Positions 29,831 to 64,000 of a stretch of 64,000 bases of DNA are shown in pieces (the stretch's first letter is position 1; each line of letters begins with the position of its first letter). Origin of the DNA: Candidatus Methylospira mobilis (GTDB lineage: Bacteria > Pseudomonadota > Gammaproteobacteria > Methylococcales > Methylococcaceae). The position numbers and the translations under genes were made by a program. The DNA lies in the NCBI RefSeq assembly GCF_009498235.1, contig NZ_CP044205.1, positions 1,359,716 to 1,423,715 on the forward strand, given 5' to 3'. The notes under the pieces are model-generated. The model was not told the DNA's origin and made no database searches. It was given only the letters and a program-made list of their open reading frames with translations.

Positions 29831-29943
29831 TGAATGCTACCTTGGTTTAGCCATGAAGTCTGCCGGCGGTTCTCCGAAGTACGGGGCGGCGATGCCTACT
29901 GGTTGCCCGGTTCGCTTGCGCTTGCCCGGCGTCACCGACGTTT

Positions 29944-30992: not shown

Positions 30993-31052
30993 GGCGAATA
31001 CAGGGACAGCCATGAGTGATGCTGCCGCGCTTTAGAACAGAGGGCGTCAATA

Positions 31053-31640
31053 GTGAACAGCAATTCTTACAAATCCGATGTGGAAAAGCTTTCAGACTTC
31101 ATATCCGGGATCATCGAAGGGCGCGACCCGGATTTGTACGGGCATCACCAGCGGATCGGAAAGATTGCAATGTTATTTGCGCAACATATCGGTTGCTCGG
31201 CGGAAGACTCGGAACTGCTCGCGATTGGAGCTCGTATACACGACATCGGCAAGCTGTCCATTAACGAACATATCCTGAACAAACCCACGCAGCTTACCGC
31301 GACCGAGTTCTCATTGATCAGGCAACATACCGAAATAGGCGAAAGACTGCTTGCTCCCCTGAAGCTGGATGTGCGTATCGCCGAAATCGTGCGCTTCCAC
31401 CACGAAAACTACGATGGCAGCGGATATCCGCAAGGTCTGGCAGGGGAGGAAATTCCGTTTTTGTCCCGGGTGGTCAGAGTTCTGGACTCCTTGGACGCGT
31501 TAACTTCGAACAGGCCCTATCACCCGCGCGTTTCATGCGACGAGGCTTTGTGCGTAATGCAGCGTGATTCCCATGTTTACGATCCGTTCCTGCTCGAATC
31601 ATGCTGCGAAATGATGAACAAACACCTCATAGAGGTGTAA
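31053..31640 (+). CDS. Stand-alone HD-GYP cyclic-di-GMP phosphodiesterase
   Basis: A GTG start with AGAGGG upstream gives 195 residues. The protein is almost only the HD-GYP domain: H in GHHQRIGKIA, HD in ARIHDIGKLSI, HTEIGERLL, the full HHENYDGSGYPQGL signature, and the RVLDSLDALTSNRPY motif. All metal ligands seem present. It should hydrolyse cyclic di-GMP. It lacks a receiver, so control must come from a partner or from expression. It follows the hemerythrin gene by 60 bases. Confidence 0.9.
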   Translation: MNSNSYKSDVEKLSDFISGIIEGRDPDLYGHHQRIGKIAMLFAQHIGCSAEDSELLAIGARIHDIGKLSINEHILNKPTQLTATEFSLIRQHTEIGERLLAPLKLDVRIAEIVRFHHENYDGSGYPQGLAGEEIPFLSRVVRVLDSLDALTSNRPYHPRVSCDEALCVMQRDSHVYDPFLLESCCEMMNKHLIEV

Positions 31641-31799
31641 GCTAAAACCGCCAAAATTCCGTCAGCGCGAATTGGCATACCCCATGGGTGTGCTGAATTG
31701 CGTTTTTTGCCAAACATGAAACGCAAACTGCCGGCATTACTTCCATCATTGATGTATAAAAAAAATCAGCGCCTCCCAGACTTACGCGGACTCAGAACC

Positions 31800-33671: not shown

Positions 33672-33746
33672 CCATGGATCTTTTGGGTTCTCCTGGGTTT
33701 CGTGGACAGAGAGACCCGTTTGTAAGCAGCGCCAAGGAGCCAATCA

Positions 33747-34295
33747 ATGAGTAATGACGCAGAAAATATTGCCGAACAAATGGCGGCCCTGAAAATCCCT
33801 TTGGATCGCGACCTGTTCATGCGCACCCTGATCCGGGAGCTGGCCGACGTGCTGCAGGATGTAGTCGGCGCCGAGCAGGCGTCGAGCTTTATCAGCGTAG
33901 TCGGTCAGTTGATGGGCAAGCGGATCAACGAACAGTATTGCAAGGCCCTCGACGCAACTTCGCTGAGCAGGGAGCAGGTTGCAGCGGTGCTGGTGGATTT
34001 GAAAAAGCGCATCGGAGGCGATTTTTTCATAGTCGCGCAGGATGATGAGAAAATCATTTTTGGCAGCCGATCGTGCCCGTTCGAGGAAAAAGTGGTTGGA
34101 CAAAAGGCGATGTGCATGATGACTTCCAATGTTTTCGGCAGCATCGCAGCCGCCAACCTGGGCTACGCCAAAGTACACCTGCAAGCTACTCTTGCCGAAG
34201 GACAGCCCGAATGCCGCGTGGTGGTGTTTTTAAAGATGAGCGACGAAGCGGATGCGGTAGAGGGCCGGGAATACTTCAAGAGCGCAGCCGGATGA
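33747..34295 (+). CDS. MetOD1-domain protein
   Basis: The 182-residue protein resembles the methanogen output domain 1 (MetOD1) family. It has an N-terminal helix ([33 protein letters not shown]) and a central [54 protein letters not shown] segment with three cysteines (SRSCPF, AMCMM and EGQPECRV). In other genomes this domain is a signalling output or co-sensor. Here it is translationally coupled (ATGA overlap) to the multi-PAS kinase that follows, implying a sensor pair. Confidence 0.8.
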
Positions 34296-37000: not shown

Positions 37001-37089
37001 CTCGAAATAAGCTGGCGCCGGTAAACCCACTAGTGTGGGCTGAATTATTGCTGAACGGGACAAATCTGTGTTTATAAAGGAAAATATAT

Positions 37090-37545
37090 ATGGATGATGC
37101 AGTAAAAGAAGTTGAAATCCTGCTGGTTGAAGACAATCCGACCGATGCGGAACTGGCGATACGGGCGCTTAAAAAAAACAATTTCGCCAATAAACTGGTA
37201 TGGGTAAAAGATGGCGCGGAAGCATTGGATTTCCTTTTCGCTACCGGAGCCTATAGCGGACGCCAGGTGACAAATGGCCCCAAGGTGATTCTGCTGGACC
37301 TGCGCCTGCCCAAGGTGGACGGTATGGAAGTGCTGCGCCGGATCAAGGACGATGAGCGTACCCGTATTATCCCTGTGGTGGTGCTGACCTCTTCCACTGA
37401 GGACAGAGATGTCGCGGAAAGTTACCAGCTCGGCGTCAACAGCTATATCAGCAAACCTCTGGAATTCGACCAGTTCGCCAAGACAGTATCCGAACTGGGA
37501 CTGTACTGGCTGCTGGTGAATCGCCCGCCGCTTGCCGCGAAGTAG
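37090..37545 (+). CDS. Rcp1-like single-domain response regulator
   Basis: This 151-residue protein is a lone receiver: acidic pocket [13 protein letters not shown], phospho-Asp in [13 protein letters not shown], Thr/Ser in [12 protein letters not shown], and Lys in [13 protein letters not shown]. The insert after the first helices ([13 protein letters not shown]) is typical of Rcp1 partners of phytochrome kinases. It sits 90 bases after the multi-PAS kinase, its presumed phosphodonor, and 3 bases before the next kinase gene. Confidence 0.92.
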
Positions 37546-37547
37546 CC

Positions 37548-39887: not shown

Positions 39888-39979
39888 AAAGCCTTGTTTT
39901 GCCTGTTTCCGGCCGGTTTTGATTAAATTCATGCTTCACAAGCCGGCAGTATTGGCGGATAGGTTGCGGGGTTGCTTTG

Positions 39980-41314
39980 CTAACCGGTTGTTGTATCAGG
40001 GCTGGCGACGTTATGCGGTCCGTCACAAGGCTGGGCGAAATAACTGAAACGGTTACGGCCCGCATTTTTGGCTTCATACATCGCTCTTTCGGCATTATAG
40101 AGCAGCTCTTTGATGGTAACGGCGTCGTTTGGATAAAAGGCTATGCCGATGCTGGCTGAAAGGCGGGTTGTTTCGTCTCCCGATGCGTAAGGCTGGTTCA
40201 ATGCTTGAATAATTTTCTGGGCGACGCGTTCGATATTGGTTGGGACGGCTATTTCAGGCAGAATAACGGCAAACTCATCGCCGTCCAACCTCGCGACGGT
40301 ATCCGATTCGCGCACGCTTGCGCCAATGCGGCGCGCGGCTTCTATCAGCAAACTGTCGCCTTCGTCATATCCCAAATGTTCATTTATCTCCTTGAGGCGG
40401 TCGATGTCTATAAGAAATAACGCCAGGGACATATCCGCCCCAGCCGAATCTTCGACACCTTGCTTCAGCCGTTCATGGAACATCTGCCGGTTGGGTAGTT
40501 GCGTCAGGCCGTCGAAATGCGTCTGACGCCACGTCAGTTCTTCCGCCAGCTTGCGTTCGGAGAGGTCGCGCACGACTGCCTGCAGAATGGGCTTACTCTC
40601 CAGTATCGTCCTGCTCAGCATTACTTCTGCAGGAAAGCTTGCGCCGGTATCGGCACGCTCGAATACCCAATCAAAATGTTGATTGCCTTCGTTCAGGGCC
40701 TGGGCGATCTTCTGGTCGGCCAGCGTTCTGGAATTGGCGCCGCAGGGTTGCTCCGGCGGAGACAAGTCGGCGAGGTGCAAATAAAACGCTTCCTGGCTGG
40801 CGCAACCGAAAACTGTCAAGGTCGCTTCGTTACAGTCGAAAACGCTTTGCTCATCCAGCAGCATGACCGCATCAACGGTCGAATCATAAAGCGTGCGAAA
40901 CCTGCTCTCCGATCGGCATAAGGCATCTTCCAGTTTCACTCGATGCAGCGCATTGCGAATGCAGTGTGCCAAGCCATTGTGGCCGAAATCGCCCTTCACC
41001 AAGTAGTCGGTAGCCCCTGCGTCCAGCATTTTCTGGCAGAAATCGGTTTGGTCTGGCGCGGTTAATGCGATGATGGGAATACGCTTCGCCGATTGCCGCG
41101 CGATGCGGACGGTTTCCAGGGCTTCCGTTTCGGCGTGCGGCAGATCCAGAAGTAAAACATCGTAGCTTGATTCAACTTCCTCTTGCAGCGCTTCGCGCAA
41201 CGAACAGATCCGGGTAACATCAAAATGCATACGCGCAAACCGATGCAGCGAGATTTGTATATCGCCGGCTTCGGTTTCTATCGACAGTACACGGATGAGT
41301 TCGGTTTCGCTCAT
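39980..41314 (-). CDS. REC-PAS-GGDEF diguanylate cyclase
   Basis: This 444-residue protein has a receiver-like domain (about 1-125; the phospho-Asp lies in DVLLLDLPHAE and the loop differs from the norm), a PAS domain (about 135-255) and a GGDEF domain (about 265-430). The active site reads LDGDEF, with Asp replacing the first Gly, a common functional variant. RESD five residues upstream forms the inhibitory I-site. It should make cyclic di-GMP, opposing the nearby HD-GYP proteins. It converges on the kinase operon. Confidence 0.9.
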   Translation of the reverse strand: MSETELIRVLSIETEAGDIQISLHRFARMHFDVTRICSLREALQEEVESSYDVLLLDLPHAETEALETVRIARQSAKRIPIIALTAPDQTDFCQKMLDAGATDYLVKGDFGHNGLAHCIRNALHRVKLEDALCRSESRFRTLYDSTVDAVMLLDEQSVFDCNEATLTVFGCASQEAFYLHLADLSPPEQPCGANSRTLADQKIAQALNEGNQHFDWVFERADTGASFPAEVMLSRTILESKPILQAVVRDLSERKLAEELTWRQTHFDGLTQLPNRQMFHERLKQGVEDSAGADMSLALFLIDIDRLKEINEHLGYDEGDSLLIEAARRIGASVRESDTVARLDGDEFAVILPEIAVPTNIERVAQKIIQALNQPYASGDETTRLSASIGIAFYPNDAVTIKELLYNAERAMYEAKNAGRNRFSYFAQPCDGPHNVASPDTTTG

Positions 41315-41920: not shown

Positions 41921-43843
41921 CTACTGCTTTATACACGAATCCGGATAGGCGTTAGGCGCAATAAGAGGGGTCATCCTTCCGTTCGCAAAGTCGTATACGC
42001 CGCAGTCCGACGCGTCGTATTTTATCAACATGGGAATAGCGTCGGTGAATACACTTTTATCGGCGAACATGCTGGTAAAGTCTGTGCTGGTTGACATTGC
42101 TCCGAATAATGTCGTCAGATCCTTCCATGTGTATGCGAATAATGAATTATGTGGAAGGTCGCAGTAGGTTTGTCCGGCAATGTAGGAATTCTCAGATGTA
42201 TTCTTTGATGCCTGTATGTACTCAATCGATTGTAGATAATACTTATGACGGTTTTGGCTGTTCCGCTTAAGCTGGCCTTTCGTATCTTTCTTCCATTCAG
42301 GGTTTTCAGAAGTTTCCAAAGAACATTCGTACGCGCCGTTGATGGCGCTGGTGCTGAATTTAAACGGGTCGGCTACTTCGCCCTGGTTGGTGATATTGAT
42401 TCCCAGCGGTCCGACCGCCTGTCGGTAATCCTTGGCTGTTTTTTCCGGAAGCGGCGTCCCGTAATTATATAAAGCGCCTGGCTTGTAACTGCCAATGAAC
42501 ATGGCGTGTATCGAAGGTTTTGGCGGATCTGGCGTCATATAAAAATAAACAGCCGAAGCCAGTATCAAATATCCATCGCGCGCAACGTGATCCGGGTATT
42601 TCAGTAAAAAGTCCGGGTCGCCGAGCATGACTGCAGAAAAGTTTGCGTAGTTGCTGGGATGGCTTAATTGGTGCAAACCCCTGCCGTAATAGCATACTTG
42701 ATAATTGTCCAAAAGCTTTTGATCATTGCCGCCGTAACTCGTATAACACCAGTTGGTTGTCGTGATCGGTTTAAACTCGTATGCGTAGCTTTCCTGGTTG
42801 TTTTCACGGCTTGCAGACAATATTTGCCTGTTTTCAGGGTATTTGATTTGGTCTACGATGGTATCGTGACCGCCGGTTTCTTGCGCGGCATGACCGAACA
42901 TGGCTGCAATTTCTCTTCTGCACGTATCGATCGATACGTTACCCTTATCCGAGGCGGAAGGGTCGCCGCAAAAGTGCGGATATCTTGCAATAACCTTAAG
43001 CAAGTTTTCGTAACTCAACGTTTGGGTCAACACAGGGCCGCCGCCGTTTTCAACAAAAATATCCTGCCAGTTCTTCTCTATGGATTTTTTATTTGCCTCA
43101 CTGTTTTTTGCATTTTTCTGTGTTACTTCCGTAAGGTATTTTGTGTACATATTCCATGACTCTATTGGAAATGCCTGCATGACGTTCTGCACATTATATT
43201 GATTATTACCCATATTGCCTGCATCGACGGCAGGCTGGCAGGGTAGCGCATAAGCTGCCGACAATTGCTTGAGGATATAATCTTTTTGAGTTTGCGAAAG
43301 CGATGAAAAATTCGTCGCTACGGATTCACGGCTTTTGATGTCTCCGTTGTTAAACAGATAGTCAATATCCTTGCGGCTTTTGAATAATGCGTCGGCCTGC
43401 AGTGGCGTATAAAATGAAGGGCACGTCGGTACAGGTTTATACGGCGGCGGTCCTGGCGGTACGATAGTATTTTCCACTTTTTGCCATAAGCCGGCTTTGC
43501 CTGGTATATCCCCAGGGTTGGCCCACCACTGATTCTGATATATCGCGCCTTGATAGCAGATTTTAGTAAATGCCGTGGCATATACTTTGGCTTCCCAGGC
43601 TGGAAAGTCCGAGCAGCGCTTTTCTTCGAAAAGAGCCCAGGGCCCTTGCGTTTCCGAAGGCGTCATGCCTGGTTCCACCCAGTACATGGCGCGCCATTTT
43701 TTTCCGCCGTACATGACATCCGCAAGCTTTTTGTATGTTTGGGACGGGTCGTAATTCGGTACGGTTGCAGCCAAAACCGGCCCGCCAAATAAACAGCATA
43801 AAGCGAATAGAGCGATTAGGTGTTGTCGGTGTTTTTTTTTCAC
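41921..43843 (-). CDS. Secreted GH19 chitinase with chitin-binding modules
   Basis: The 640-residue protein starts with a signal peptide (LIALFALCCLFGGPVLAATV). Two carbohydrate-binding type 5/12 modules follow (YDPSQTYKKLADVMYGGKKWRAMYWVEPG and VYATAFTKICYQGAIYQNQWWANPGDIPG; Trp/Tyr residues bind chitin). A helical linker leads to the glycoside hydrolase 19 domain with FGHAAQETGGHD (catalytic Glu) and YYGRGLHQLSHPSNYANF. It cleaves beta-1,4-linked N-acetylglucosamine polymers by inversion. Being exported by Sec, it is a natural candidate for the T2SS encoded at 53777-62751. Confidence 0.9.
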   Translation of the reverse strand: MKKKHRQHLIALFALCCLFGGPVLAATVPNYDPSQTYKKLADVMYGGKKWRAMYWVEPGMTPSETQGPWALFEEKRCSDFPAWEAKVYATAFTKICYQGAIYQNQWWANPGDIPGKAGLWQKVENTIVPPGPPPYKPVPTCPSFYTPLQADALFKSRKDIDYLFNNGDIKSRESVATNFSSLSQTQKDYILKQLSAAYALPCQPAVDAGNMGNNQYNVQNVMQAFPIESWNMYTKYLTEVTQKNAKNSEANKKSIEKNWQDIFVENGGGPVLTQTLSYENLLKVIARYPHFCGDPSASDKGNVSIDTCRREIAAMFGHAAQETGGHDTIVDQIKYPENRQILSASRENNQESYAYEFKPITTTNWCYTSYGGNDQKLLDNYQVCYYGRGLHQLSHPSNYANFSAVMLGDPDFLLKYPDHVARDGYLILASAVYFYMTPDPPKPSIHAMFIGSYKPGALYNYGTPLPEKTAKDYRQAVGPLGINITNQGEVADPFKFSTSAINGAYECSLETSENPEWKKDTKGQLKRNSQNRHKYYLQSIEYIQASKNTSENSYIAGQTYCDLPHNSLFAYTWKDLTTLFGAMSTSTDFTSMFADKSVFTDAIPMLIKYDASDCGVYDFANGRMTPLIAPNAYPDSCIKQ

Positions 43844-45265: not shown

Positions 45266-48200
45266 ATGGGTAGTCTCAATCTTAGAAGCCAGAATCTGGA
45301 TGGAATCAGCGGTAACATCTATGCGCCAGGTGACTGGGTCAGCACATACAGCAATGTGGCGCAGAATAATTCAAATACCTTCATATTCGGGACGCTGGGC
45401 GATGCCAACATTACCAGCCGGCAAGACAGCACCGATACACAAACGGGATTCCATCGGTTGTTCACATTGAAGGTGGAAGGCTCATATAAATCGTATACAG
45501 TATCGAGCAGTTATGGCTATGTCACATTGACTAACGTTCAGAACGGCCAGACTATAAAATTTCAGCTCAGCCAACCGGAAGCCGGCGCCAATGATTCAGG
45601 TGTCGACGTACAGTTTCTTGATGGCGGTCTGGCCTTTACGTCTTATGTCGATGCCAACAGCGGTGCCTGGTCAGCCTATGTCACCAAAGGCGGAACCAGT
45701 AACATGTGGGGAACGGGTTCGGTGGCGCTTCCCGCGACTAACGTACAAACTGCGCTGAGTCTTGCGACGCTCGGTTCTACGACAGTCAACCCGGCGGATA
45801 CGCTCGCCCCTATCTATGCTCCTTCTTCTGGTTCTGTAGCCAGTACCTGGAGCAGCACTACCGGACTCGGGATGATAAATCTCGATACTGCGCTGGCGCT
45901 GGCTACAGGGAAGACCGTTACCCCTGCGTCCCCCCTTACCTCTGCCTCTGATACTACAACGCTTAATTGGGGTATAAACGCAGCTAATTTCCAGAGTGCC
46001 TGGAAAGCCGGGTACACCGGCGCGGGTATTACCATCGCAGTAATCGATAGCGGCCTCGACCTGAGCAATACCGCGCTCAAAACAAACTACCTGGCATCAA
46101 AAAGCAGCGCTTTTTCCTCTGTGCAGGATTTCAACGGTCATGGCACCTTTGTAGCCAGTCAAATAATTGCGCAGAATACAGGTACGGCAGCAAACCCGTC
46201 GCCGGTTACCGGCGGCGCTTACGGTGCGAGCTTGCTGGCGCTGAATGATGGCACCTACGTCAACGGTAGCTATCAGGGTATTCAAGGCAGCATAGCGGCA
46301 GGAATCACTTATGCCGTCAATAACGGCGCCAACGTAATCAATATATCGTTGGGAACGTCTGTCGACAACGAGCTGTTGACAGCTTTGCAATACGCCAGTG
46401 ATAACGGGGTCATTGTGGTGGTTGCCTCTGCCAATTCGGGCTATACTAGCCCAGCTTATCCGGCTGCTGCCGCTCAAACACTGGGCAATGTCATCGCTGT
46501 GGGTGCTACGCAGTACACTGCTTCCGGTTCAGATATAGTGCAGGCCGGTTTCAGCAATCAGGCCGGCAGCAGCGCCGCTTATAATTATGTGGACGCGCCG
46601 GGCGCCAATGTGTTGGGCTATCAGATAGGAGGGGGGGTAAAGGCTGACTCAGGCACCTCTTACGCGGCACCGGAGGTTGCAGCAGAGGCAGCGGTTTTGG
46701 AGCAGGCGATCAAACAATCCAACCCCGCTCTTGATCAAACGCAGTTAGCAGCGGCGGTAGTGCATGCCATTACGGTGGGATTGGTCGGAGTCTCGCCTAA
46801 TGTCATCACGAATGATGCGACAAATGCTTATTCTCCATACACATTCACGCTCAGTGCTTCAGTGACCAGCTATATTGCTGCAAACCCAGTTATGAATACT
46901 TTTAACGGTAGCTATAGCGATGGCGAAGTTGGGGGGGGGAATACGTTTAAAATTGACGATATTATCACTGGCAAGGGAACTATCAATACGCTGAATATCT
47001 CGTATTATACGGAAGGTGGTGCTACTTCATTTACAGCAGATAATGACAGTATTTGGTCTCATGTTAGCGGGATCCAAAATCTTTCGATTGCAACCGACGG
47101 CACAGGCGCACAGACCCTTACCTCAGGTGCTAAGTTTAATGCCGCATTTGCTACGGCAGGCGTATATCTGACGTCGACAGCCGTCGACGGCGCGATTAAT
47201 GTTTATATGGATGGGAGTCATGGTGGGACCCTGTTTACCGGGACTGAAACAATCAATGCAAACACAACCGGTCAGGGTGCGCAGACTATTAACGCCGGCT
47301 CTGGTCCTGCCACAGTGATAGCATCAGACCGGGGTGGTGCGCAAACCATTGCGGGTGCAAATCTTATCGGAGTGTCGATAACAAACAAAGGTGGCGGTGG
47401 TGCGCAGACGATTACCAGTACGGGCGCAGGCCCTGTCACAATATCAGCATCAGATGGTTCGGGCGCGCAGACGATTACCAGTACGGGCGCAGGCCCTGTC
47501 ACAATATCAGCATCAGATGGTTCGGGCGCGCAGACGATTACCAGTACGGGCGCAGGCCCTGTCACAATATCAGCATCAGATGGTTCGGGCGCGCAGATGA
47601 TTACCAGTACGGGCGCAGGCTCCGTCACAATAACAGCATTTGATGATTCAGGCGCGCAGACGATTACCAGTACGGGCGCAGGCTCCGCCACAATAACAGC
47701 ATCAGATCTTTCAGGCGCGCAGACGATTACAACGGGTGCGGGCAACGATATTTTAAACGTGACGTTGTCTGCCGGAGCAACCAATACCATTGCAACGGGC
47801 GCAGGCAACGATACGATCAACCTCTCTTATACTGCTACTGCTGGCTCGGCTTCGACCAACACCATTACAGGCGGCCTCGGTGCTGACACGATCAACTTGG
47901 GTACCCAAACCACCGGTACGGTTGATAAACTGATCTATGCCGCACTTAGCGGTACCAATGATACCGGCTCGGCCATCACCGCCAACGGCGCACTGAGCGG
48001 TGTCGACGTTATCAGCGGCGCAAGAACTGGGGACGTAATCAATCTTGGCGCTGCTGCCGGTACGCTGACCAACGCATTGGATGGCGGCTTTACAAACCCG
48101 GTTGTTGCCGGTGGGCTGTCAGCACAAATCGTGCTGGGTAATTACACTGGTGGTACCAATGGTACGTTTACTGCCTCTGCCACGGGTAATTCATCCCTGG

Positions 48201-53776: not shown

Positions 53777-54868
53777 ATGTTTGACTTACCCTCGTTGCTG
53801 AAAACTGAATTCGACTACAATGCTTTTTTGCGATGGTGGGGGTTGCAGCTCGGTTTTTTAGCACCTGAGGGCGTCCGGAATTTTTTGTGGCCGCGGCGTC
53901 CTTCGCTACTGATACGCCCGATGTCGGGGCAATTGTTGGTTTTCGTGTATGAAAACGATAATCTGCAGGAGTTGGGGTTATTTCCAATCGATGAAACGGG
54001 CGCACAGGCGCGCGACGCCTTGTTTGCCAAAAACCCCTATCTGTGCGATACCGATCAGGTGCTGATGTTGACACAGGATGTGTCTTTGCTGCGCCGTTGC
54101 AAGCTGCCCCACGCCGCGATAGAAAACCTGCATCAGGTTGTCGGCTTCGAGCTCGATAGGTTGACGCCGTTCAAACCGGAGCAAGTGTATTACAGCGCCC
54201 GAATTTTGGAGCGTATAAAGGAAAGCAAACAATTGCGAGTCGAGGTCGCGCTGGTGCTGCGTGACACGCTCGATCCCCTGCTTCAGGCGATGCATCGATG
54301 CGGCTGGAAGCCCTTTCGCGCTGATATAGATGAGGGCGTTGCGTTGACCCGGCGCCATGAGTTGCTGCCCGAAGCCTTTCGCATCCCCAGAAAGCGGGGG
54401 CCGTGGTGGGTCGCTGCCGCGGCGGGGGGCGTGTTGATGGCGATAGCGGGTATCGCCCTGTGGTTGCCGCTTACGATGGGGGAGACTATGGCAAGCCGTC
54501 TGCAAGCGGAAATTAAAGCGGGAAACAAGGTTGTGGCGGAGGTTGAAGCATTAAAAACAGGAGCGGAAAAGATAAGGATCAACGCTAATTTTATACGCCG
54601 TAAAAAGCGGGAAGAACCGCGCATGCTCGATATGCTGGAAGAACTGACGCGTATATTGCCGGACGATACGTGGTTGAACGGTTTGCAATACGATGAACAC
54701 AAGCTGCTTGTGCAGGGACAGTCTCCGAATTCGACGGAATTGATCGAAAAACTGGAGGTTTCCCCTTATTTTCAGGACGTGAAGTTCGCCTCGCCTATAA
54801 CCAAGGATGCCAACCGGATTGAACGCTTTCAGATTTCCGCTGCGGTGATTAATGGTCAGGCTAATTAA
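53777..54868 (+). CDS. gspL: GspL-like T2SS assembly platform protein
   Basis: This 363-residue protein has an N-terminal actin-like cytoplasmic domain (about 1-210), one membrane segment (GPWWVAAAAGGVLMAIAGIALWLPLT, about 215-240), and a periplasmic ferredoxin-like part similar to PilN (MLDMLEELTRILPDDTWLNGLQYDEHKLLVQGQ). It links the GspE ATPase to the inner-membrane platform. It opens the operon and overlaps gspM by 17 bases. Confidence 0.85.
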   Translation: MFDLPSLLKTEFDYNAFLRWWGLQLGFLAPEGVRNFLWPRRPSLLIRPMSGQLLVFVYENDNLQELGLFPIDETGAQARDALFAKNPYLCDTDQVLMLTQDVSLLRRCKLPHAAIENLHQVVGFELDRLTPFKPEQVYYSARILERIKESKQLRVEVALVLRDTLDPLLQAMHRCGWKPFRADIDEGVALTRRHELLPEAFRIPRKRGPWWVAAAAGGVLMAIAGIALWLPLTMGETMASRLQAEIKAGNKVVAEVEALKTGAEKIRINANFIRRKKREEPRMLDMLEELTRILPDDTWLNGLQYDEHKLLVQGQSPNSTELIEKLEVSPYFQDVKFASPITKDANRIERFQISAAVINGQAN

Positions 54869-55463
54869 AATAACATTCGATAAGTCTCGTCTGCTTGCAT
54901 TGGGGTTGCTGGCGGGAATTGCCGGATTGTTTTTCTTTGTGGCCGTTCTGCCGGTGCTGGGACAACGAGCGGAATATGCCGCATCTATCGAAAATTCGAT
55001 TTTCCGCCTGCAGCGGCTCAATGGCCTGATTGCGAAAAAAGATTACTGGCAAGAAGAGCTTGACCGTGCAAAACAGCAGGATCAGCAGGAGTTCCAGTTT
55101 ATCTTCAGAGAAACGTCTTCGCTGGCATCCGCCGACATGCAGGCGCAAATCGGCGAAATCATTAAGGACGCCAGAGGAGAGTTGATTAGTACCCAGACGC
55201 TGCCGGACGAAATGGAGGAAAAGTTTGTCCGGGTTGGAATCAAGGTGCGCATGACGGGAAGTACGCGAACCTTGAGAAAGGTGCTTTATTATGTCAAGGC
55301 AACTTATTTCGACTCCACTAAACCGGCTTTGTTCGTTGAAAGTCTCAGTATCCGTCCGATACGGCTTAGTCAAACGCTCTCCAATGGCGTCGTCGCGCCA
55401 GTTATGGAAAAATTGAGTATCGAATTCGATGTGGTTGGCTATATGCATCCGGGGTCGCAATGA
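54852..55463 (+). CDS. gspM: GspM-like T2SS protein
   Basis: 203 residues, with an N-terminal membrane anchor (LLALGLLAGIAGLFFFVAVLPVL), a coiled segment (NSIFRLQRLNGLIAKKDYWQEELDRAKQQ) and a periplasmic domain (RVGIKVRMTGSTRTLRKVLYYVKA) of the GspMb type. It partners GspL in the inner membrane. Overlaps with both neighbours (17 bases with gspL, 4 with the next gene) indicate translational coupling. Confidence 0.82.
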   Translation: MVRLIKITFDKSRLLALGLLAGIAGLFFFVAVLPVLGQRAEYAASIENSIFRLQRLNGLIAKKDYWQEELDRAKQQDQQEFQFIFRETSSLASADMQAQIGEIIKDARGELISTQTLPDEMEEKFVRVGIKVRMTGSTRTLRKVLYYVKATYFDSTKPALFVESLSIRPIRLSQTLSNGVVAPVMEKLSIEFDVVGYMHPGSQ

Positions 55464-55996
55464 AGCAATTCTCTAACGACAGTCTGGCTGTGAAGCGTGC
55501 GCTGAACGATTATCGCTGGGCAATTTTTCTTTTTGTTTTAAGTGTTTTTATGCTGTTTATGCTGCTGGCCGAGTGGGGTGTGATGTCATGGCGCGATAAG
55601 ATGCTGCTGGCCAGACTTGATGAAAAGCCTCCGCAAGCGGCTCAGCCGCCTGCCGTCAAGGGGCCGGTTGCATCCGATCTGCTTCCAATGGAAAGCTACG
55701 CGCAAACCGTTGAACGTCCGGTGTTTATGGAAGGACGCAAACCCGGTTTGGAGCCGTGGCTGTCTCTGGAGCAGGGTACGAAGACGACGCAGGGACCGCT
55801 GAGCTTGACGGGTGTCGTTTTATCGCCGGGTGGTGAAGAGGCGCTGCTGACCGATGATCAGCACCACACCAAGCGACTTAAAAAAGGCGAAAGCTGGAAC
55901 GGGTGGACGTTGCAGGGCGTATATCCCGACCATGCCGTTATAGAGCAGCGAGGCGATAGACAGGATATCCGTCTGCATACCAAAAAAAAGCCATAG
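55460..55996 (+). CDS. GspC/GspN-like T2SS periplasmic protein
   Basis: 178 residues with one membrane segment near residues 20-42 (WAIFLFVLSVFMLFMLLAEWGVM), a proline/alanine-rich linker and a small periplasmic domain (LSLTGVVLSPGGEEALLTDDQHHTKRLKKGESWNGWTLQGVYPDHAVIEQ) of the GspC homology-region type. That domain normally docks on the secretin. It lies between gspM and gspD, consistent with this role; family annotation could read GspC or GspN. Confidence 0.75.
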   Translation: MKQFSNDSLAVKRALNDYRWAIFLFVLSVFMLFMLLAEWGVMSWRDKMLLARLDEKPPQAAQPPAVKGPVASDLLPMESYAQTVERPVFMEGRKPGLEPWLSLEQGTKTTQGPLSLTGVVLSPGGEEALLTDDQHHTKRLKKGESWNGWTLQGVYPDHAVIEQRGDRQDIRLHTKKKP

Positions 55997-56079
55997 CTGC
56001 AGACCTGCGCCGCTCTAACAATAAATTGGCGCTGTACATGCCGGTTGCCTGATATAGTTAAACCCGCTGTTTAAGTTGG

Positions 56080-58551
56080 ATGAAAATGCATACTGCCTTG
56101 TTTCAAACGTATCGATTTAATAAAACCTTATCGTGGGCCGGATTATTGGTGGTTACCGGGCTATTGATAGGTTGCCAGTATCTGGCGCCGTTCGATAGGC
56201 CGAAGGAGGTTCCCGAGATATTGAAAGTCCAGCAGGTAAAACCCGCTCCGCCGCAAGTAGAAGAAGTCGTTGAGGATAACCGGGGACTCAAAGAGACCGA
56301 GTATTTCCCTGCTACCGGGTCTTCTTATAAAGCCGTCCAGAGCAATGAGCGGAAACAGCCCGGCCGGCAGAATAAGCGCAACGCCGCTGAGATAGCGCCG
56401 GGAAAGCCGGAAGGCAAATACACCCTGAACTTCGACGATGCCGATATAGGCGAAGTCGCCAAAGTGATTTTGGGCGATACGCTGAAATTGAATTATGTCA
56501 TCAATCCGAAAGTAACCGGCAAGATCAGCTTGCAAACGACGGCGCCGCTGAGCGACGCTGAAATGATACCGACGCTGGAGACGCTGCTGCGCATGAACGG
56601 CGCCGCGTTGATCAAGAGCGATTCGATTTATCGTATCGAACCGGATGCGGCTGCGATCATCAATGCGCCGAATAGCGGGATCGGGCTGACCGGCAAGATA
56701 CAGCCGGGCTTCCAGGTGCGGGTGGTGCCGTTGCGCTTTGCCGGCGCGCATGAAATGCAAAAAATCGTAGAACCGTTGCTGCCGCCTAAATCGGTAGTCT
56801 ATGCCGATCCGTTGCGCAATTTGCTGATCGTCGCCGCGAACGCTGACGATCTGGAAAATGTCAAGCAGACCGTGAATGCTTTCGATGTCGATTTCATGCG
56901 CGGGATGGCGGTGGCGTTTTTCCCGCTGCAGAATGTCGATCCGACTACGCTGGCGCATGAGCTGGATGCATTGATGATGACCGGTGATAAAGGGGCGATG
57001 TCGGGCATGGTGCGCATCCTGCCGGTGGAGCGCTTGAACGCGGTGATGGCGATTTCGGCGCAACCTGCCTACCTGCGCGACGTGGAAACCTGGATAGAGC
57101 GGTTGGATCGCTTCAGTCCGCATAAATCCGGCAATATGCATGTTTACAAGGTTCAAAATGTTGACGCGGTCACGTTGGCGCAGACGCTGGCCCAGGTTTT
57201 CGGTCCGGCGGCCCATGCGGGTTCGGGGCCGCAGGCTTCGATCGCGCCGGGAATGAGCGGAACTTCTATAGGCGGTGGCGGCGGCGCCGCTTTTGGCGCC
57301 AGCAATCTGCAGAGCAGTGTGTCGGGCGTCGGCTTTGGCGTCAGCGATAGCGGGCAGGCTTCCGGCAGTTCATCCGGCGGGTTTGGTGGTGGCTCCTCCT
57401 CAGGCAGCTCAGGCATGGGGGGGGCTGCTGCCGCCTCAACCGGTTCTTCGACCGGCGCAAGCCCTGGCTCTTCGAGCCCGGCTTCATCTTCTACCACTGG
57501 ATCGAGCGGATCGAGCGCTTCAGGCGGCTTCGGGGCCGGCTCTTCGGGGCTTGGCGGCGCCGGCAGCAGCGGAACCGGCAACCGGCAACCGGTGGTTGCG
57601 GAACTGGCCAACAATGCGCGCGTGGTCGCCGATCCGGTCAATAATGCCCTGGTGATATTCGCCAAGCCCGCGGAATTCCATGACATAGAAACCGTGCTGA
57701 AAGAGCTGGACGTGATGCCCCGGCAGGTCATTGTCGATGCGATGATCGCCGAAGTGACGCTGACCGGCAAATTGCAATACGGTTTGCAATGGTATTTTAA
57801 TAAAGGCAGCAGTTCGGGCGGTTTATATACGCCCGGCATAATGGGGTTTCCAGCCAACTTCCCCGTTCCCGATACTGCTTATACCAAAAATATGCAGAAT
57901 GGCGGGTTTAGTTATATTTTTTCGGCCAATCAAATCCGCGCCGAGCTGGATTTGCTGTCTACGGAAGGCAAGGTCAAGATTTTGTCGACCCCATCGATAA
58001 TGGTGCTGAACAATCAGGAGGGGCAAATCAATGTAGGTCAACAGGTCCCCGTATCCAACGGTCAACAGAATGTCACCACGGGCGGTATTCCGACCTCAAC
58101 CAGTACGTTTTCCTATAGGGACACCGGCGTTACGCTCAAGCTCAGGCCGCGGGTTAACGAAGGCGGCCTGGTATTGATGACGGTTCAACAGGAGCTGGTG
58201 CAGCCGCAACCCGCTCCGGTTACCGCGCCGTTGAATCCGCCTTTTTTGCAACGTAAAATTATAAGCACGGTCGCCGTAAATAACGGCGATACCATTACTA
58301 TGGGCGGGTTGATACAGGAAAATACCCAGGATACGGTAACGGGCATACCGGTGTTGGCTCAATTGCCCTATATCGGCTGGCTGTTCGGAACAACCGTCAA
58401 AAGTATGGATAGAACCGAGCTGGTGATGCTGTTGACGCCGAGGACTCTTGATTCGCGGCCCGACGTAACCAGGGTGGCCAACGAGTTCAGACGCCATTTG
58501 ACAGGATGGAACGACTTGAAACCGCTGTCGCCCGATCCGGGTGGGCGTTAA
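56080..58551 (+). CDS. gspD: GspD secretin, first copy
   Basis: The 823-residue outer-membrane secretin has a lipoprotein signal (VVTGLLIGC, cleavage before Cys). N0 domain (YTLNFDDADIGEVAKVILGD, about 110-190), N1-N3 domains (VRVVPLRFAGAHEMQKIVEPLL and following) and the secretin pore (VNVGQQVPVSNG-type, GVTLKLRPRVNEGGL, ALPYIGWLFG-like) follow. Between N3 halves lies an unusual Gly/Ser-rich linker of about 110 residues (about 390-505). Twelve- to fifteen-fold rings of GspD form the exit channel. It is followed by a paralogue. Confidence 0.93.
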   Translation: MKMHTALFQTYRFNKTLSWAGLLVVTGLLIGCQYLAPFDRPKEVPEILKVQQVKPAPPQVEEVVEDNRGLKETEYFPATGSSYKAVQSNERKQPGRQNKRNAAEIAPGKPEGKYTLNFDDADIGEVAKVILGDTLKLNYVINPKVTGKISLQTTAPLSDAEMIPTLETLLRMNGAALIKSDSIYRIEPDAAAIINAPNSGIGLTGKIQPGFQVRVVPLRFAGAHEMQKIVEPLLPPKSVVYADPLRNLLIVAANADDLENVKQTVNAFDVDFMRGMAVAFFPLQNVDPTTLAHELDALMMTGDKGAMSGMVRILPVERLNAVMAISAQPAYLRDVETWIERLDRFSPHKSGNMHVYKVQNVDAVTLAQTLAQVFGPAAHAGSGPQASIAPGMSGTSIGGGGGAAFGASNLQSSVSGVGFGVSDSGQASGSSSGGFGGGSSSGSSGMGGAAAASTGSSTGASPGSSSPASSSTTGSSGSSASGGFGAGSSGLGGAGSSGTGNRQPVVAELANNARVVADPVNNALVIFAKPAEFHDIETVLKELDVMPRQVIVDAMIAEVTLTGKLQYGLQWYFNKGSSSGGLYTPGIMGFPANFPVPDTAYTKNMQNGGFSYIFSANQIRAELDLLSTEGKVKILSTPSIMVLNNQEGQINVGQQVPVSNGQQNVTTGGIPTSTSTFSYRDTGVTLKLRPRVNEGGLVLMTVQQELVQPQPAPVTAPLNPPFLQRKIISTVAVNNGDTITMGGLIQENTQDTVTGIPVLAQLPYIGWLFGTTVKSMDRTELVMLLTPRTLDSRPDVTRVANEFRRHLTGWNDLKPLSPDPGGR

Positions 58552-58587
58552 GAAATATGGCTAAAATTATTTGTCGATGATACTCGT

Positions 58588-60930
58588 TTGTTTCAGGAAT
58601 ATTCATACGCAAAAGTTTCAGCATGGGCCGGTTTGTGCGTGTCCGCCTTACTATTGACAGGCTGTCAATATCCGGCTCCGTTCGACAGGCAGACGGAAGT
58701 TCCCGGGATATTACAAATTCAGCAGGTAAAACCTGTTCCGCCGCAACTCAATGAGGTTGCCGAAGCTTCCCGGAACTTGAGCGAGGTCGAGTATCTCCCG
58801 GTCTCCGGGACTATCTATGATGCTCAGAGCGGTAATGCGGAGAAAATAACTCGGACGGAGGGCAAGAGGGAGGGTAAACATGCCCTGAACTTTGACAATG
58901 CCGACATAGGCGAAGTAGCCGGGGTTATTTTGGGCGATGCGCTGAAGTTGAACTACGTCATCAACCCGAAAGTGACAGGCAAGATCAGCCTGCAAACTGC
59001 AGCGCCGTTGAGCGATGCTGAAATGATACCGGTGCTGGAGACGCTGCTGCACATGAACGGCGCCGCGTTGATCAAGAGCGATTCGCTTTATCGCATCGAA
59101 GCGGATACGTCCGCGATCGTCAATGCGCCAAGCCGTGGAGCCGGGCCGGCCGGAAAGATACAGCCGGGATTTCAGGTGCGGGTGGTGCCGTTGCGTTTTG
59201 CAGGCGCGCATGAAATGCAAAAAATCGTAGAGCCGTTGTTGCCGCCGAAGTCGGTGATCTATGCCGATTCGCTGCGGAACCTGCTGATAGTTGCCGCGAA
59301 TGCCGACGATCTTGAGAACGTCAAGCAGACCGTAAGCGCTTTCGATGTCGACTTTATGCGCGGAATGGCGGTGGCGTTTTTCCCGTTGCATAATGTCGAT
59401 CCGGTTACGCTGAAGCACGAGCTGGATGCGTTGATGATGAGCGGCGATAAGGGGGCTGCGCAGGGGTTACTGCGCATTCTGCCGGTAGAGCGGCTGAATG
59501 CCGTCATGGCGGTTTCGGCGCAGCCTGCCTATTTGCGCGACGTGGAAACCTGGGTAGAGCGGTTGGATCGCCTGAGCCCGCATAAATTCGGAGAAATGAA
59601 TATTTATAAAGCGCAGCATGTGGATGCCATGTCGTTGGCGCGGACGCTGACCCAGGTTTTTGGTCCGGCGGCTCATGCGGAGTCCGGGCCGCAGGTTTCA
59701 ATCGCGCTGGGAATGAGCGGCGCGTCTGTCGGTGGCGGCGCTTTTGGCGCGAGCGATAACGGCCGAAGCGGTCAGGCGTCGGGCGTTTCTTCGGGCGGTA
59801 GCGGCAGTACGGCCGGTTCCTCTTCCGTCGCGAACGATGCGGCTTCGGGTCCTGGTTCCGCATTGGTTGCAGAAACAGGCGCTTCCGGCGCCTTCGGAGC
59901 CGGCGCGTCAACTGCCGGCGTCAGGAGCGGAAACGGCAATAGTCAGGCTACGGTTGCCGAACTGGCCAACAACGCGCGCGTGGTTGCTGATCCAGCCAAT
60001 AACGCCTTGGTGATATTCGCCAAGCCGGCGGAATACCATGACATGGAAATCGTGCTGAAGGAGCTGGATACGATGCCCAGGGAGGTGATTGTCGACGCGA
60101 TGATTGCCGAAGTGACGTTGACCGGTAGTTTGCAATACGGTCTGCAATGGTATTTTAACCATGGCAGCAGTTCCGGCGGGTTGGGGCAGCCCGGTTTGTT
60201 GGGAGTGAACGCCAATAATCCGCTGTCGGCAGTTCCCTCCAACGCAGCGACCAAGGGGTTTTTTACCCCTGCGATGGCGGCAGGCGGGTTCAGTTACGTG
60301 ATGGCCGCCAATGATCTCAGGGTCGAACTGGATTTGCTGGCATCGCAAGGCAAGGTCAATATTTTGACTACGCCTTCGATCGTGGTGCGGAACAACCAGG
60401 AGGGGCAAATCAATGTGGGTCAGCAAGTAGCCGTGTCGAACGGCAGCCAGGTTGTCACCACAAACGGCGCTCCGACCTCGACCAGTACATTTTCTTATAG
60501 AGATACCGGCGTTACGCTTAAACTCAGGCCGCGCGTGAATGAAGGCGGTCTGGTGTTCCTGACGGTTCAACAGGAGCTTGTGCAACCGCAAGCCGCTTCG
60601 GTTGCCGCTCCGTTGAATCCTCCCTTTTTACAGCGCAAAATTTTGAGTACGGTAGCAGTATATAGCGGAGATACCCTGGCCATGGGAGGGTTGATTTCGG
60701 AACAAACCAACGATACCGTTTACGGTATACCGATACTGTCCGAATTGCCCTATATCGGCTGGTTGTTTGGCACAACGCTCAAATCCTTGAATAGAACCGA
60801 GGTGGTGATGCTGTTGACGCCTAGAATTTTAGCATCGCGGACCGATGCGGCCAGCGTGACAAATGAGTACAGGCGCCGCTTGTCCGAATGGAATGAGACT
60901 GCGCCGTCGATGCCTGCAGCCGTACACTGA
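58588..60930 (+). CDS. gspD: GspD secretin, second tandem copy
   Basis: 780 residues starting at a TTG (no in-frame ATG lies between the stop of the first copy and this codon). It is collinear with the first copy: lipobox SALLLTGC, N0 to N3, Gly/Ser/Ala-rich linker (about 385-445, shorter than in copy 1), and a pore domain with VNVGQQVAVSNG-like and GVTLKLRPRVNEGGL segments. Most residues outside the linker and signal peptide are the same. Both genes look intact. The pair may form mixed rings or separate channels. Confidence 0.9.
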   Translation: MFQEYSYAKVSAWAGLCVSALLLTGCQYPAPFDRQTEVPGILQIQQVKPVPPQLNEVAEASRNLSEVEYLPVSGTIYDAQSGNAEKITRTEGKREGKHALNFDNADIGEVAGVILGDALKLNYVINPKVTGKISLQTAAPLSDAEMIPVLETLLHMNGAALIKSDSLYRIEADTSAIVNAPSRGAGPAGKIQPGFQVRVVPLRFAGAHEMQKIVEPLLPPKSVIYADSLRNLLIVAANADDLENVKQTVSAFDVDFMRGMAVAFFPLHNVDPVTLKHELDALMMSGDKGAAQGLLRILPVERLNAVMAVSAQPAYLRDVETWVERLDRLSPHKFGEMNIYKAQHVDAMSLARTLTQVFGPAAHAESGPQVSIALGMSGASVGGGAFGASDNGRSGQASGVSSGGSGSTAGSSSVANDAASGPGSALVAETGASGAFGAGASTAGVRSGNGNSQATVAELANNARVVADPANNALVIFAKPAEYHDMEIVLKELDTMPREVIVDAMIAEVTLTGSLQYGLQWYFNHGSSSGGLGQPGLLGVNANNPLSAVPSNAATKGFFTPAMAAGGFSYVMAANDLRVELDLLASQGKVNILTTPSIVVRNNQEGQINVGQQVAVSNGSQVVTTNGAPTSTSTFSYRDTGVTLKLRPRVNEGGLVFLTVQQELVQPQAASVAAPLNPPFLQRKILSTVAVYSGDTLAMGGLISEQTNDTVYGIPILSELPYIGWLFGTTLKSLNRTEVVMLLTPRILASRTDAASVTNEYRRRLSEWNETAPSMPAAVH

Positions 60931-61038
60931 TATCAGGTAGTCTGGTTTGCGAAAATAGCGATTTCTTTGATTTGTTTGTTGATAAAGTGACTGCGGGTCC
61001 GTTCACTATGAAGTTAACCATGTCGGAGTTTTTCACAT

Positions 61039-62751
61039 CTGAATACGATTACTGAGGTTTCATCGGCTTATTCACAGTTTACCGGCTGGTTGCAGGAAAC
61101 AGGCAAAGCGCGCGATGTGGAAATTAATCGCGCTTACCGCTTGGCGCAGCAGTCGGAAGAGGTGTCGCTGCCGCTGTTGTTGATGCGCATGGGGGTGATT
61201 TCCGAAAGGGACGTGGCCGAAGGTTTGGCCGATGTCAGCGGTTTGCTGCTGGTCAAGGCTGCCGAGTACCCCAGCGCAGCGATACTCCCTGATTCCATAC
61301 CGCAGCGATTTCTACAGGAAAACAAGGTTATCGGTCTGAATGAAACGCCCGAAGCTTTCGAAGTGGCGGTCGCGGACCCGCTGGACCGGTTCCTGGCGCA
61401 CGCGCTGAGTCTGGCTTGCGGCAAGCCCGTGCATATGCGCGTCGGACTTGCTTCCGAAATCGAAAAAGCCATTGAGCAGCAGCTGGGTACAGGACGTTCC
61501 TTGATGGGACAGTTGACCGATCATTTTGGCGGCGATGACGAAAGTGAAGAGACTGATGTCGAGCAGCTCAAGGATATGGCAAGCGAGGCGCCGGTTGTGC
61601 GCATGGTGAATCTGGTAATGCAGCGCGCGGTGGACGCGCGGGCTTCCGATATCCATATCGAACCGTTCGAGGAGCGGCTGCATGTGCGTTTTCGTGTCGA
61701 CGGCGTGTTGAAGGAAGTGGAAGCGCCGCCGGTGCGTTCGACGGCTGCCGTGATTTCCCGCATCAAGATCATGGCGAAGCTGAACATAGCCGAGCGGCGC
61801 TTGCCGCAGGATGGCCGCATCAGTTTGATGGTTCAAGGGCGTGAGCTGGACTTGCGCGTTTCGACGGTGCCGACGCTGTACGGCGAAAGCGTCGTCATAC
61901 GTTTATTGCACAAGGAAAGCATCAGTCTCGATTTTGCCGCATTGGGTTTTGATGGCGACGTACTCGCGCGTTTTCTGAGACTCCTGGAGTTGCCGCATGG
62001 CGTTATTCTGATTACCGGCCCGACCGGCAGCGGAAAAAGCACCACGCTGTATACCGCGCTGCATCGTATCAACACCCCGGACCGTAAAATCATCACTGTC
62101 GAAGATCCGGTCGAATACCAGCTCGAAGGCATCAACCAGATACAAACCAAGGCGCAGATAGGACTGACTTTCGCCAGCGCATTGCGTTCCATCATGCGCC
62201 AGGATCCGGATGTGATCATGATAGGCGAGATGCGCGATCTGGAAACGGCGCGTATCGCGGTGCAATCCGCCTTGACCGGTCACTTGGTGCTTTCCACGCT
62301 GCATACCAACGATGCCGCGAGCGGCGTAACGCGTCTGCTCGATATGGGGCTGGAGGATTATTTGATTACTTCCACCGTGAACGGGATACTGGGGCAGCGT
62401 CTGGTGCGGCGCTTGTGTCCGCATTGCCGCGAACCGTACGCCGCGGCGCCGGAGGTGGTCAGCGAAATGAGGTTGCGCCGTTTCGTGGCCGAAGGCGATG
62501 TTACGCTTTACCGTCCGCGTGGATGCGAGCGTTGCGATCAGCGGGGGTACAAGGGACGTCTATCCATCGTCGAGTTGCTGGTGATGAGTGATGAAATTCG
62601 GCGTATGGTGATGGAGCATGTTCAGGCGCGTCATATCGAAGAGCAGGCGCTGAAAGAAGGCATGTTGACCATGCATGCCGACGGCGTGCGCAAGGCGGTC
62701 GAGGGCTTGACTACGATAGAGGAAGTGCTGCGCGTCACTTCGGATGTTTAA
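61039..62751 (+). CDS. gspE: GspE, T2SS ATPase
   Basis: The protein has Walker A GPTGSGKST, Walker B DVIMIGEMRD and the Asp box of secretion ATPases (IITVEDPVEYQLEGINQIQ). A tetracysteine zinc site follows (CPHC and CERC), and the N-terminal domain (RAYRLAQQSEE, GVISERDVAEGLADVSG) binds GspL. A TTG at 61090 gives 553 residues, but homologous sequence continues upstream (LNTITEVSSAYSQFTGWLQE), so the true start is probably the CTG at 61039, after GGAG. GspE powers pseudopilus assembly. Confidence 0.93.
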   Translation: MNTITEVSSAYSQFTGWLQETGKARDVEINRAYRLAQQSEEVSLPLLLMRMGVISERDVAEGLADVSGLLLVKAAEYPSAAILPDSIPQRFLQENKVIGLNETPEAFEVAVADPLDRFLAHALSLACGKPVHMRVGLASEIEKAIEQQLGTGRSLMGQLTDHFGGDDESEETDVEQLKDMASEAPVVRMVNLVMQRAVDARASDIHIEPFEERLHVRFRVDGVLKEVEAPPVRSTAAVISRIKIMAKLNIAERRLPQDGRISLMVQGRELDLRVSTVPTLYGESVVIRLLHKESISLDFAALGFDGDVLARFLRLLELPHGVILITGPTGSGKSTTLYTALHRINTPDRKIITVEDPVEYQLEGINQIQTKAQIGLTFASALRSIMRQDPDVIMIGEMRDLETARIAVQSALTGHLVLSTLHTNDAASGVTRLLDMGLEDYLITSTVNGILGQRLVRRLCPHCREPYAAAPEVVSEMRLRRFVAEGDVTLYRPRGCERCDQRGYKGRLSIVELLVMSDEIRRMVMEHVQARHIEEQALKEGMLTMHADGVRKAVEGLTTIEEVLRVTSDV

Positions 62752-62963
62752 TTTGCATGGGCATAACGCGAACGACGAATCTGCGCTTCGGCGACCTGGG
62801 TACAGGAAGTTTCCGCTGCATCCGTCAGGCGTTCCACATTTGAACGACTGCCGACCGATGACCGGAAGCGTGAAAGGCGGGCAACGCTTGCCCAGCAATT
62901 CACCACAACCGGCAAAGCGTGAGCTGGATGCCAAAAAAAACCTATTATTCAGGGGGATAACTT

Positions 62964-64000
62964 ATGTTTCGCCGACGACTTTCGTTTTTGTCTTCTATCG
63001 CTACCGCTCTTGCCGTACTGGTGCTGACTTCACCTATTCGCTTGGTTAATGCGAAGGAATCAGGCGCGAATGGAGATAGACATAAACCGGAGCCGCGCGC
63101 GATATTACCGGTTTCCGACCCGCTGATGATCTCGCCCCTTGTCTGGTCTGTATTGGCCAAGCCTGTATATCCTGTCGAGACGACCGACGGACGTATCCAT
63201 CTGGTGTATGAGTTAAATGTCAATAATAATTCGCGCTATACGGTTAACCTTGACGCCGTTGAGGTGCTGGACGCGAGAACCGGCCTCCGGACAGGGCTAA
63301 ACCAGGCCATCAGCCTGGACGGGCAGGACATTGCGGGCAAAATCCGACCTTTCTCCCTGGAAAATCCCAGCCAGAACGCAGTTGATTACACGAATCAGCT
63401 CGGTCCCGGACAAGGCGGCGTGATTTATTACGATCTGAGCTACCAGATAGCGAGAGACCTGCCCCAATCGATTAAGCATCGAGTCGTTGTTTCGTTCCAA
63501 AAAGCAGACGGTACGACTCAGTCGCTTACATCCATGGACGCTGGAACCGAAATCAGCCGCGAGAAAGCGCTGAGCATCAGTCCGCCGCTGGAAGGCGCAG
63601 GCTGGCTGATTGCCAACGGAAGCGGCGGAATCGTTACCGCGCATCGCTACACAGCTCAGCCAACCAATGGAGCGCTACGTTCAGCGGAGCATTTTGCCAT
63701 CGATTTTATCAAGCTGGATCAGTCTGGTAAGCTTCACTCAGGCGACCAGTACAACAACAGCAGTTACTTCTGCTATGGGCTAAACGTGCTTTCCGCGACG
63801 AACGGACGCGTGGTAGTAGTGTCCGACGGGATGACGGAGCAGATTCCCGGACGGCTGGTTCCTCCGCAAGAAGTTCTTCAATATACAGGCAATCATGTGG
63901 TTGTCGCGATTGGCTCTGGAAAATATGCGCTCTATGCGCATTTGGTGCCCGGCAGCGTCAAGGTCAAACAGGGCGATGGTGTCAAGGCCGGGCAAATCCT
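62964..64000 (+). CDS. Secreted M23-family peptidase, cut by window edge
   Basis: The ATG at 62964 is preceded by AGGGGG and opens a frame that continues past the right edge (at least 345 residues). It begins with a signal peptide (FLSSIATALAVLVLTSPIRLVNA). A beta-rich domain (about 40-215) precedes the LAS/M23 metallopeptidase domain: H-x3-D in SAEHFAIDFIKLD supplies the first zinc ligands and YALYAHLVPGSV the H-x-H-like motif. M23 enzymes cut peptidoglycan cross-bridges or other glycine-rich peptides. It is a candidate for Sec and T2SS export or periplasmic action. Confidence 0.85.
   Translation, partial: MFRRRLSFLSSIATALAVLVLTSPIRLVNAKESGANGDRHKPEPRAILPVSDPLMISPLVWSVLAKPVYPVETTDGRIHLVYELNVNNNSRYTVNLDAVEVLDARTGLRTGLNQAISLDGQDIAGKIRPFSLENPSQNAVDYTNQLGPGQGGVIYYDLSYQIARDLPQSIKHRVVVSFQKADGTTQSLTSMDAGTEISREKALSISPPLEGAGWLIANGSGGIVTAHRYTAQPTNGALRSAEHFAIDFIKLDQSGKLHSGDQYNNSSYFCYGLNVLSATNGRVVVVSDGMTEQIPGRLVPPQEVLQYTGNHVVVAIGSGKYALYAHLVPGSVKVKQGDGVKAGQI

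Follow-up and report, generated by a model that had tools for sequence, protein, structure and literature searches.

Why a single type II secretion (T2SS) operon should carry two secretin genes side by side, and what the second of them may do, is the question raised by a locus of Candidatus Methylospira mobilis (Methylococcaceae), in which two gspD genes, here called D1 and D2, lie in tandem. The window analysed is a stretch of 64,000 nucleotides with a GC fraction of 0.538, covering bases 1,359,716-1,423,715 of a single-contig genome of 4,703,534 bases. The usual view is that secretin rings are homomers, and a platform served by two neighbouring, diverged secretin genes offers a natural way to ask whether cells also build mixed rings. 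The pair may also help to define which parts of a secretin can drift when a second copy is present, and what the invariant residues do.

Two intact secretin genes in one T2SS operon

The earlier note on this DNA described the two gspD copies as intact, collinear and tandem, and this description is borne out by their exact coordinates (Table 1), by scores above the TIGR02517 type_II_gspD equivalog cut-off (351.35 bits) for both proteins, and by complete domain sets, with N0, three Secretin_N stretches and the Secretin domain following one another in the same order in D1 and D2 (Pfam and predicted models). The D1 stop codon is separated from the D2 start by 36 nt, or 12 codons, both genes share one reading frame, and the 780 codons of D2 contain neither a stop nor a frameshift. 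The two proteins are identical at 558 of 820 positions (68%) by BLASTP, or at 73-74% of aligned residues with other alignments, and similarity by chance is of no concern here. By eye, the lipobox reads LIGC in D1 and LTGC in D2, the latter depending on the TTG start; putatively, both proteins pilot themselves via their lipid anchor without a pilotin, and they are predicted to form a multimeric outer-membrane pore. The predicted models (mean pLDDT 64.1 for D1 and 67.5 for D2) show N0-N3 and the barrel elements in D2, the best Foldseek PDB matches of which are T2SS secretins (6hcg, E 1.8e-32), with a poor overall overlay as judged by a TMq of 0.27 and an rmsd of 36 A. The variable loop that precedes the main barrel lies presumably at about the site of the cap gate in some T2SS secretins.

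Table 1. Positions of the T2SS genes in the window and of the secretin segments discussed in the text
Feature	Position	Strand	Details
gspL-like gene (PilN domain), first T2SS gene of the operon here	53777..54868	+	PF05137 E 7.1e-15; tblastn match to the L position of relatives
gspM (XpsM type)	54852..55463	+	NF040576 134.5 bits, cut-off 60
gspN/gspC-like gene (XpsN-like)	55460..55996	+	NF041470 48.2 bits (cut-off 400); PF11356 21.2 bits (cut-off 27); position as in relatives
gspD1 (D1)	56080..58551	+	ATG, 823 aa, liposecretin, slow-evolving; TIGR02517 509.9 bits; lipobox Cys at residue 32
D1 N0 domain	56413..56649	+	PF21305, predicted model
D1 Gly/Ser linker inside N3	57244..57597	+	118 aa, 62% G+S; pLDDT under 50 over residues 380-503
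D1 variable loop before main barrel	57799..57900	+	34 aa; low pLDDT at 575-604; D2 counterpart aligned to solved T2SS secretins
gspD2 (D2)	58588..60930	+	TTG, 780 aa, liposecretin, fast-evolving; TIGR02517 479.9 bits; lipobox Cys at residue 26
D2 N0 domain	58873..59109	+	PF21305, predicted model
D2 Gly/Ser linker inside N3	59704..59955	+	84 aa, 48% G+S, shorter than in 26 relatives; pLDDT under 50 over residues 362-453
D2 variable loop before main barrel	60157..60282	+	42 aa, counterpart of D1 57799-57900; predicted model, alignment
D2 segment in which three residues kept by all 26 relatives are changed	60382..60432	+	D2 V599, R601, A615; D1 M641, L643, P657
gspE ATPase, directly downstream of D2	61090..62751	+	TIGR02533 665.3 bits, cut-off 630.25; TTG start uncertain
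M23 peptidase gene between gspE and gspF	62964..63998	+	continues beyond the window; 448 aa in L093 680-2026; PF01551 58.2 bits (whole protein), cut-off 28.7

The operon has the order L-M-N-D1-D2-E-(M23)-F-G-H-I-J-K, and its genes are recognized with varying firmness: M, E and G pass their NCBIfam cut-offs (162.7 against 88.85 for G), F does not (385.8 against 424), and H, I, J and K score below theirs, although the best matches of F, H, I, J and K are still T2SS families. Pfam cut-offs are passed by F, G, H and K, that of PilN by L, and neither set by N. The GspK of the operon was found by PF21687 and by NF037980, the latter below its cut-off; a search of the same genome with PF03934 returned as its sole match a distant 119-aa helix-hairpin-helix protein, which is not the operon's K. 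GspM is of the XpsM type (NF040576), but the system was not filed as Xps proper because the equivalog cut-offs are missed by XpsN (48.2/400), XpsF (370.9/650), XpsH (99.5/160) and XpsI (84.3/150), with Xps models nonetheless the top matches for H and I. No terminator or promoter was listed in the gap between D1 and D2, and in the region as a whole promoter-like (2 against 5.2 in shuffles) and terminator-like (10 against 9.5) signals show no clear excess. Genome-wide, PF00263 finds three secretins, namely D1, D2 and a third located elsewhere, which is PilQ (TIGR02515 482.1 bits, cut-off 284.35). PF00482 finds two T2SSF proteins, one encoded in the operon shortly after the window ends and the other at a different place in the genome, and by that measure there is therefore one T2SS platform.

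Elsewhere in the window, a 1015-aa subtilase (PF00082; 45266-48313), with about five 63-bp tandem repeats matching at 94% (47402-47730), is a possible secreted protein, and a protein of 640 aa that contains a GH19 chitinase domain (41921-43843, minus strand) is perhaps the chitinase that the earlier note proposed as a secretion readout. The region 25539-41314 contains several PAS histidine kinases and response regulators, a CheB-CheR-PAS protein and a GGDEF protein.

Rarity of the pair and gene order in relatives

Tandem secretins in one T2SS operon had been called uncommon, a view that a survey of relatives' operons and of wider genome sets now supports. An adjacent GspD pair was found in none of 328 other distinct GspD-bearing genomes, a hand count that includes many drafts in which contig ends could hide pairs. 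At the family level D1 is matched in 34 of 38 genomes, its own included, and two full-length copies occur in its own genome only; where another genome gives two matches, these are pieces that do not overlap and lie on separate contigs (G001, G002, G015 and G023) or are two pieces of one frame (G022). At the order level, TIGR02517 is matched at 1e-60 by 166 of 201 genomes (165 besides its own), and an adjacent pair is absent from all 61 others with at least two matches, which were re-examined; the closest two matches, in G061, are on opposite strands with 13 kb between them. The same holds for the class (96 of 140 genomes matching at 1e-80, 95 of them other genomes) and for the phylum (76 of 150, 75 others), where an adjacent pair occurs in its own genome alone. 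Among 57 named loci the secretin could be read to its stop in 49, with at least 2.6 kb on both sides in 38 of these, and in none of the 49 is there a neighbouring second copy; the extra match in L067 is a 27%-identical secretin on the opposite strand, 5.7 kb away. Each of the matches in a search of 878 plasmid records stays under 60% identity. The pair has been seen in the one species of the genus covered, and a description of it was not found in the open-licence literature searched: the portions of PMC6617341 and PMC6668835 drawn upon contain no tandem gspD, and the main text of the Methylospira genome paper does not contain 'type II secretion' or 'secretin' (PMC6956133).

The arrangement around the pair also differs from that of relatives in a tblastn comparison of gene order across 60 Methylococcales loci. 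The order E-F-G-H-I-J-K-L-M-N-D, with all eleven genes visible, was counted by hand in 22 loci, of which L060 and L096 represent the same place. The gene for E follows D in L043 and L049, and it is not always beside F, since about 1.3 kb upstream of F is visible without E in, for example, L044, L046, L054 and L095; the layout is different again in L053 and L078, and the remaining loci show part of the gene set. Wherever F to D are visible in relatives the L-M-N-D block comes after K, whereas here it stands before E-F-G-H-I-J-K (53777-64000 together with L093 1-6551). For the M23 peptidase gene, weak and distant tblastn matches alone were obtained among the 60 loci, in L075 and L076, and the relatives' available flanks gave no convincing match to shared flanking genes by which the change in gene order could be traced.

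Origin and divergence of the two copies

In a family tree of 28 rows, which excludes the three fragment rows L032-L034, D1 and D2 group as sisters with a support of 100/100, and the gene was therefore duplicated within this lineage; the same pairing rules out horizontal gain of one copy. The stem shared by the two copies measures 1.08 changes per column, so the secretin of this lineage was strongly diverged by the time it was duplicated. After it, the branch lengths are 0.065 for D1 and 0.39 for D2, the latter drawing a warning from the tree program for its length and unusual composition. In Tajima relative-rate tests D2-specific changes outnumber those of D1 with five of five outgroups, with p 0.004-0.032 for four of them and p 0.38 for L021. 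Outside the linker the pairwise dN is 0.17 and the dS 0.71-0.73, giving a dN/dS of 0.24; the pair has been under constraint, because a D2 that had been neutral since the duplication predicts a dN of about half the dS or more. A four-taxon codon model, in which the outgroup branches are saturated, assigns an omega of 0.064 to D1 and 0.315 to D2, but rejects neither equal omega (p 0.079) nor a neutral D2 (p 0.12). A pseudogene since duplication is made unlikely by the pairwise ratio, though these branch tests give it no significant contradiction. Gene conversion is not claimed: the hint of it around D1 residues 160-192 is weak (p 0.025 with a window of 25 same-residue codons, p 0.056 with one of 40 codons), and the longest D1-D2 run has p 0.02, one of seven control pairs having a run with p 0.028.

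Divergence is unevenly distributed along the proteins. Identity is 0.54 in the N-tail, 0.86 in N0, 0.95 in N1, 0.85 in N2 and 0.71 in the first part of N3, and then 0.60 in the linker, 0.87 in the second part of N3, 0.93 in the pre-barrel strands, 0.59 in the variable loop, 0.78 in the barrel and 0.41 in the C-tail. Compared with 244 non-independent orthologue pairs from 25 rows, the C-tail (z -4.2) and the first part of N3 (z -2.3) are more diverged than the distance of the pair predicts, and the linker (z -0.7) is not. It had been noted that the copies differ in signal peptide and in linker length, and both differences are real, the signal peptide plus N-tail being 54% identical and the two linkers differing in length as listed in Table 1. 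The linker is also periplasmic, as proposed, by its domain position, being inserted in N3 and modelled without structure; the influence on gating or spacing suggested for it would be hypothetical. On the other hand, its standing as a special feature of the pair did not survive comparison: each of the 26 relatives compared from the family has a Gly/Ser insert, variable in length (94-138 aa) and with a G+S fraction of 0.40-0.82, the D2 linker falls just below this range, and novelty of the linker is thereby ruled out. The Gly/Ser linker is a family trait of drifting length and should not count as special to this pair.

The losses of D2 at invariant residues, together with its start codon, tell more than the linker does. 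Among 145 columns invariant in the 26 relatives, 12 are changed in D2 alone, one in D1 alone and nine in both. Three of the twelve (M641V, L643R and P657A in D1 numbering) align with the region from TPSIV to VGQEVPVLTG of solved T2SS secretins, which we take to be the strand running into the central gate, so that this stretch of D2 would lie beside that gate. Altered gating in D2 is a reasonable guess by analogy with the phage secretin pIV, in which the gate region holds most of the leaky mutations (PMC8563730, in the portion consulted).

As regards translation, the start codon that preserves the D2 signal peptide is TTG 58588, which aligns with Leu7 of D1 and has no Shine-Dalgarno sequence (duplex energy 0.3), and no in-frame ATG lies between the D1 stop and the D2 signal peptide. 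The ATG codons of D1 have duplex energies of -0.9 and -4.0. A better Shine-Dalgarno score occurs within D2 at GTG 58639 (-4.2), but TTG 58588 is preferred because a start at the GTG would lose most of the signal peptide. Weak starts are also present in other genes of the operon (J 1.2, L 0.7). With its own start, D2 may be produced at a reduced level.

Possible roles of D2 and comparison with known secretins

The explanation that we favour, and regard as probable if not strongly so, is that D2 is a fast-diverging second liposecretin on a shared inner-membrane platform, acting as a minor or alternative pore subunit, with D1 as the main pore. In such a scenario, a single liposecretin gene of a T2SS with one inner-membrane platform would have been duplicated in tandem within the lineage; D1 would have retained the ancestral sequence and would most likely form the main pore, and D2 would be a constrained yet fast-diverging paralogue that kept the lipobox, N0-N3 and the barrel while changing at the N-tail, the first half of N3, the C-terminal tail and otherwise invariant residues, three of them near the presumed central gate. 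Production of D2 would be lowered by its TTG start, without a Shine-Dalgarno sequence and right behind D1, and the protein, if piloted, assembled and docked, might alter gating or use of the system under some condition. This explanation is weakened because the poor start of D2 could mean little or no protein, because the losses at invariant residues could stem equally from decay or from a new function, and because the branch codon tests are non-significant (p 0.079 and p 0.12) and compatible with relaxation of D2.

The main sober rival is accordingly that D2 is a decaying duplicate, once useful and now weakly constrained and poorly translated. Its TTG start, the invariant columns lost in D2 alone, its longer branch and the failure of the four-taxon model to reject neutrality formally all fit this view, which we consider rather unlikely, as the frame is open throughout, the pairwise dN/dS is low, every domain is kept and weak starts are shared with other genes of the operon. 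Two sharper forms of the favoured explanation differ in the ring that D2 would enter. It is possible, if on the unlikely side, that D1 and D2 co-assemble in mixed rings in which D2 sets gate behaviour or stability: the two genes are adjacent, N1 (95% identical) and the pre-barrel strands (93%) are at or above expectation, albeit with small z values (1.2 and 1.3 on the same orthologue pairs), and low D2 expression would make such rings few. Mixed rings are plausible since PulD proteins of two lengths form mixed multimers with a 13-step ladder, secretins that differ in their periplasmic part being able to mix (PMC4604470, part of the source). The other form, in which D2, in the manner of XqhA, makes homomeric pores that use the common platform for some substrates or under some conditions, can be entertained tentatively: the domain set is complete and divergence is strongest in the C-tail and the first part of N3, and there is a precedent in XphA/XqhA, but N0 is still 86% identical to D1 and the locus has no second gspC/N gene beside D2. 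A natural hetero-oligomeric secretin, in which D1 and D2 are co-translated into the same ring and the ratio of subunits tunes pore opening, is a more speculative proposal that we think unlikely; D2 would be its gate-modifying minor subunit, a role suggested by the changed invariant residues near the gate, the short linker and the altered C-tail.

An assembly error or chimera, for which no supporting evidence was found, is extremely improbable. About 0.7 synonymous substitutions per site are too many for a mis-assembled repeat, the genome is a single contig, and what is probably the same genome, that of Ca. Methylospira mobilis Shm1, was sequenced with PacBio reads of 13,195 bp on average at 4803-fold coverage, according to the portion of the genome paper available (PMC6956133).

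Several known systems resemble the pair in part. The single-copy GspD of other Methylococcaceae likewise has a lipobox and a linker at the same site, although it is encoded by one gene, the last of F-G-H-I-J-K-L-M-N-D, whereas here the gene is duplicated and L-M-N-D precedes E and F. For liposecretins of the HxcQ/XpsD type ('Pseudomonas-type' GspD), self-piloting has been described or proposed in the parts of PMC6617341 and PMC3542185 consulted; they share with D1 and D2 the lipoprotein signal peptide and lipobox, and an XpsM-type GspM is a neighbour here, but by their description they differ from a tandem in one operon with an 84-118 aa Gly/Ser insert in N3. Two GspD types occur in one species in E. 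coli as well, where they differ by cap gate and outer-membrane route (PMC10329019, partial text), whereas D1 and D2 form a sister pair within a single operon. In Pseudomonas aeruginosa, XphA/XqhA is a hybrid GspC-GspD unit serving the Xcp machine and thus, like D2, brings a second secretin to one T2SS platform (PMC6567927, excerpt); the gene for XqhA, however, lies outside the xcp locus together with one for a GspC-like partner, while D2 adjoins D1 with no such partner beside it. In conclusion, the D1/D2 pair is real, rare among the sampled genomes and lineage-specific, and it is a variant of a known machine.
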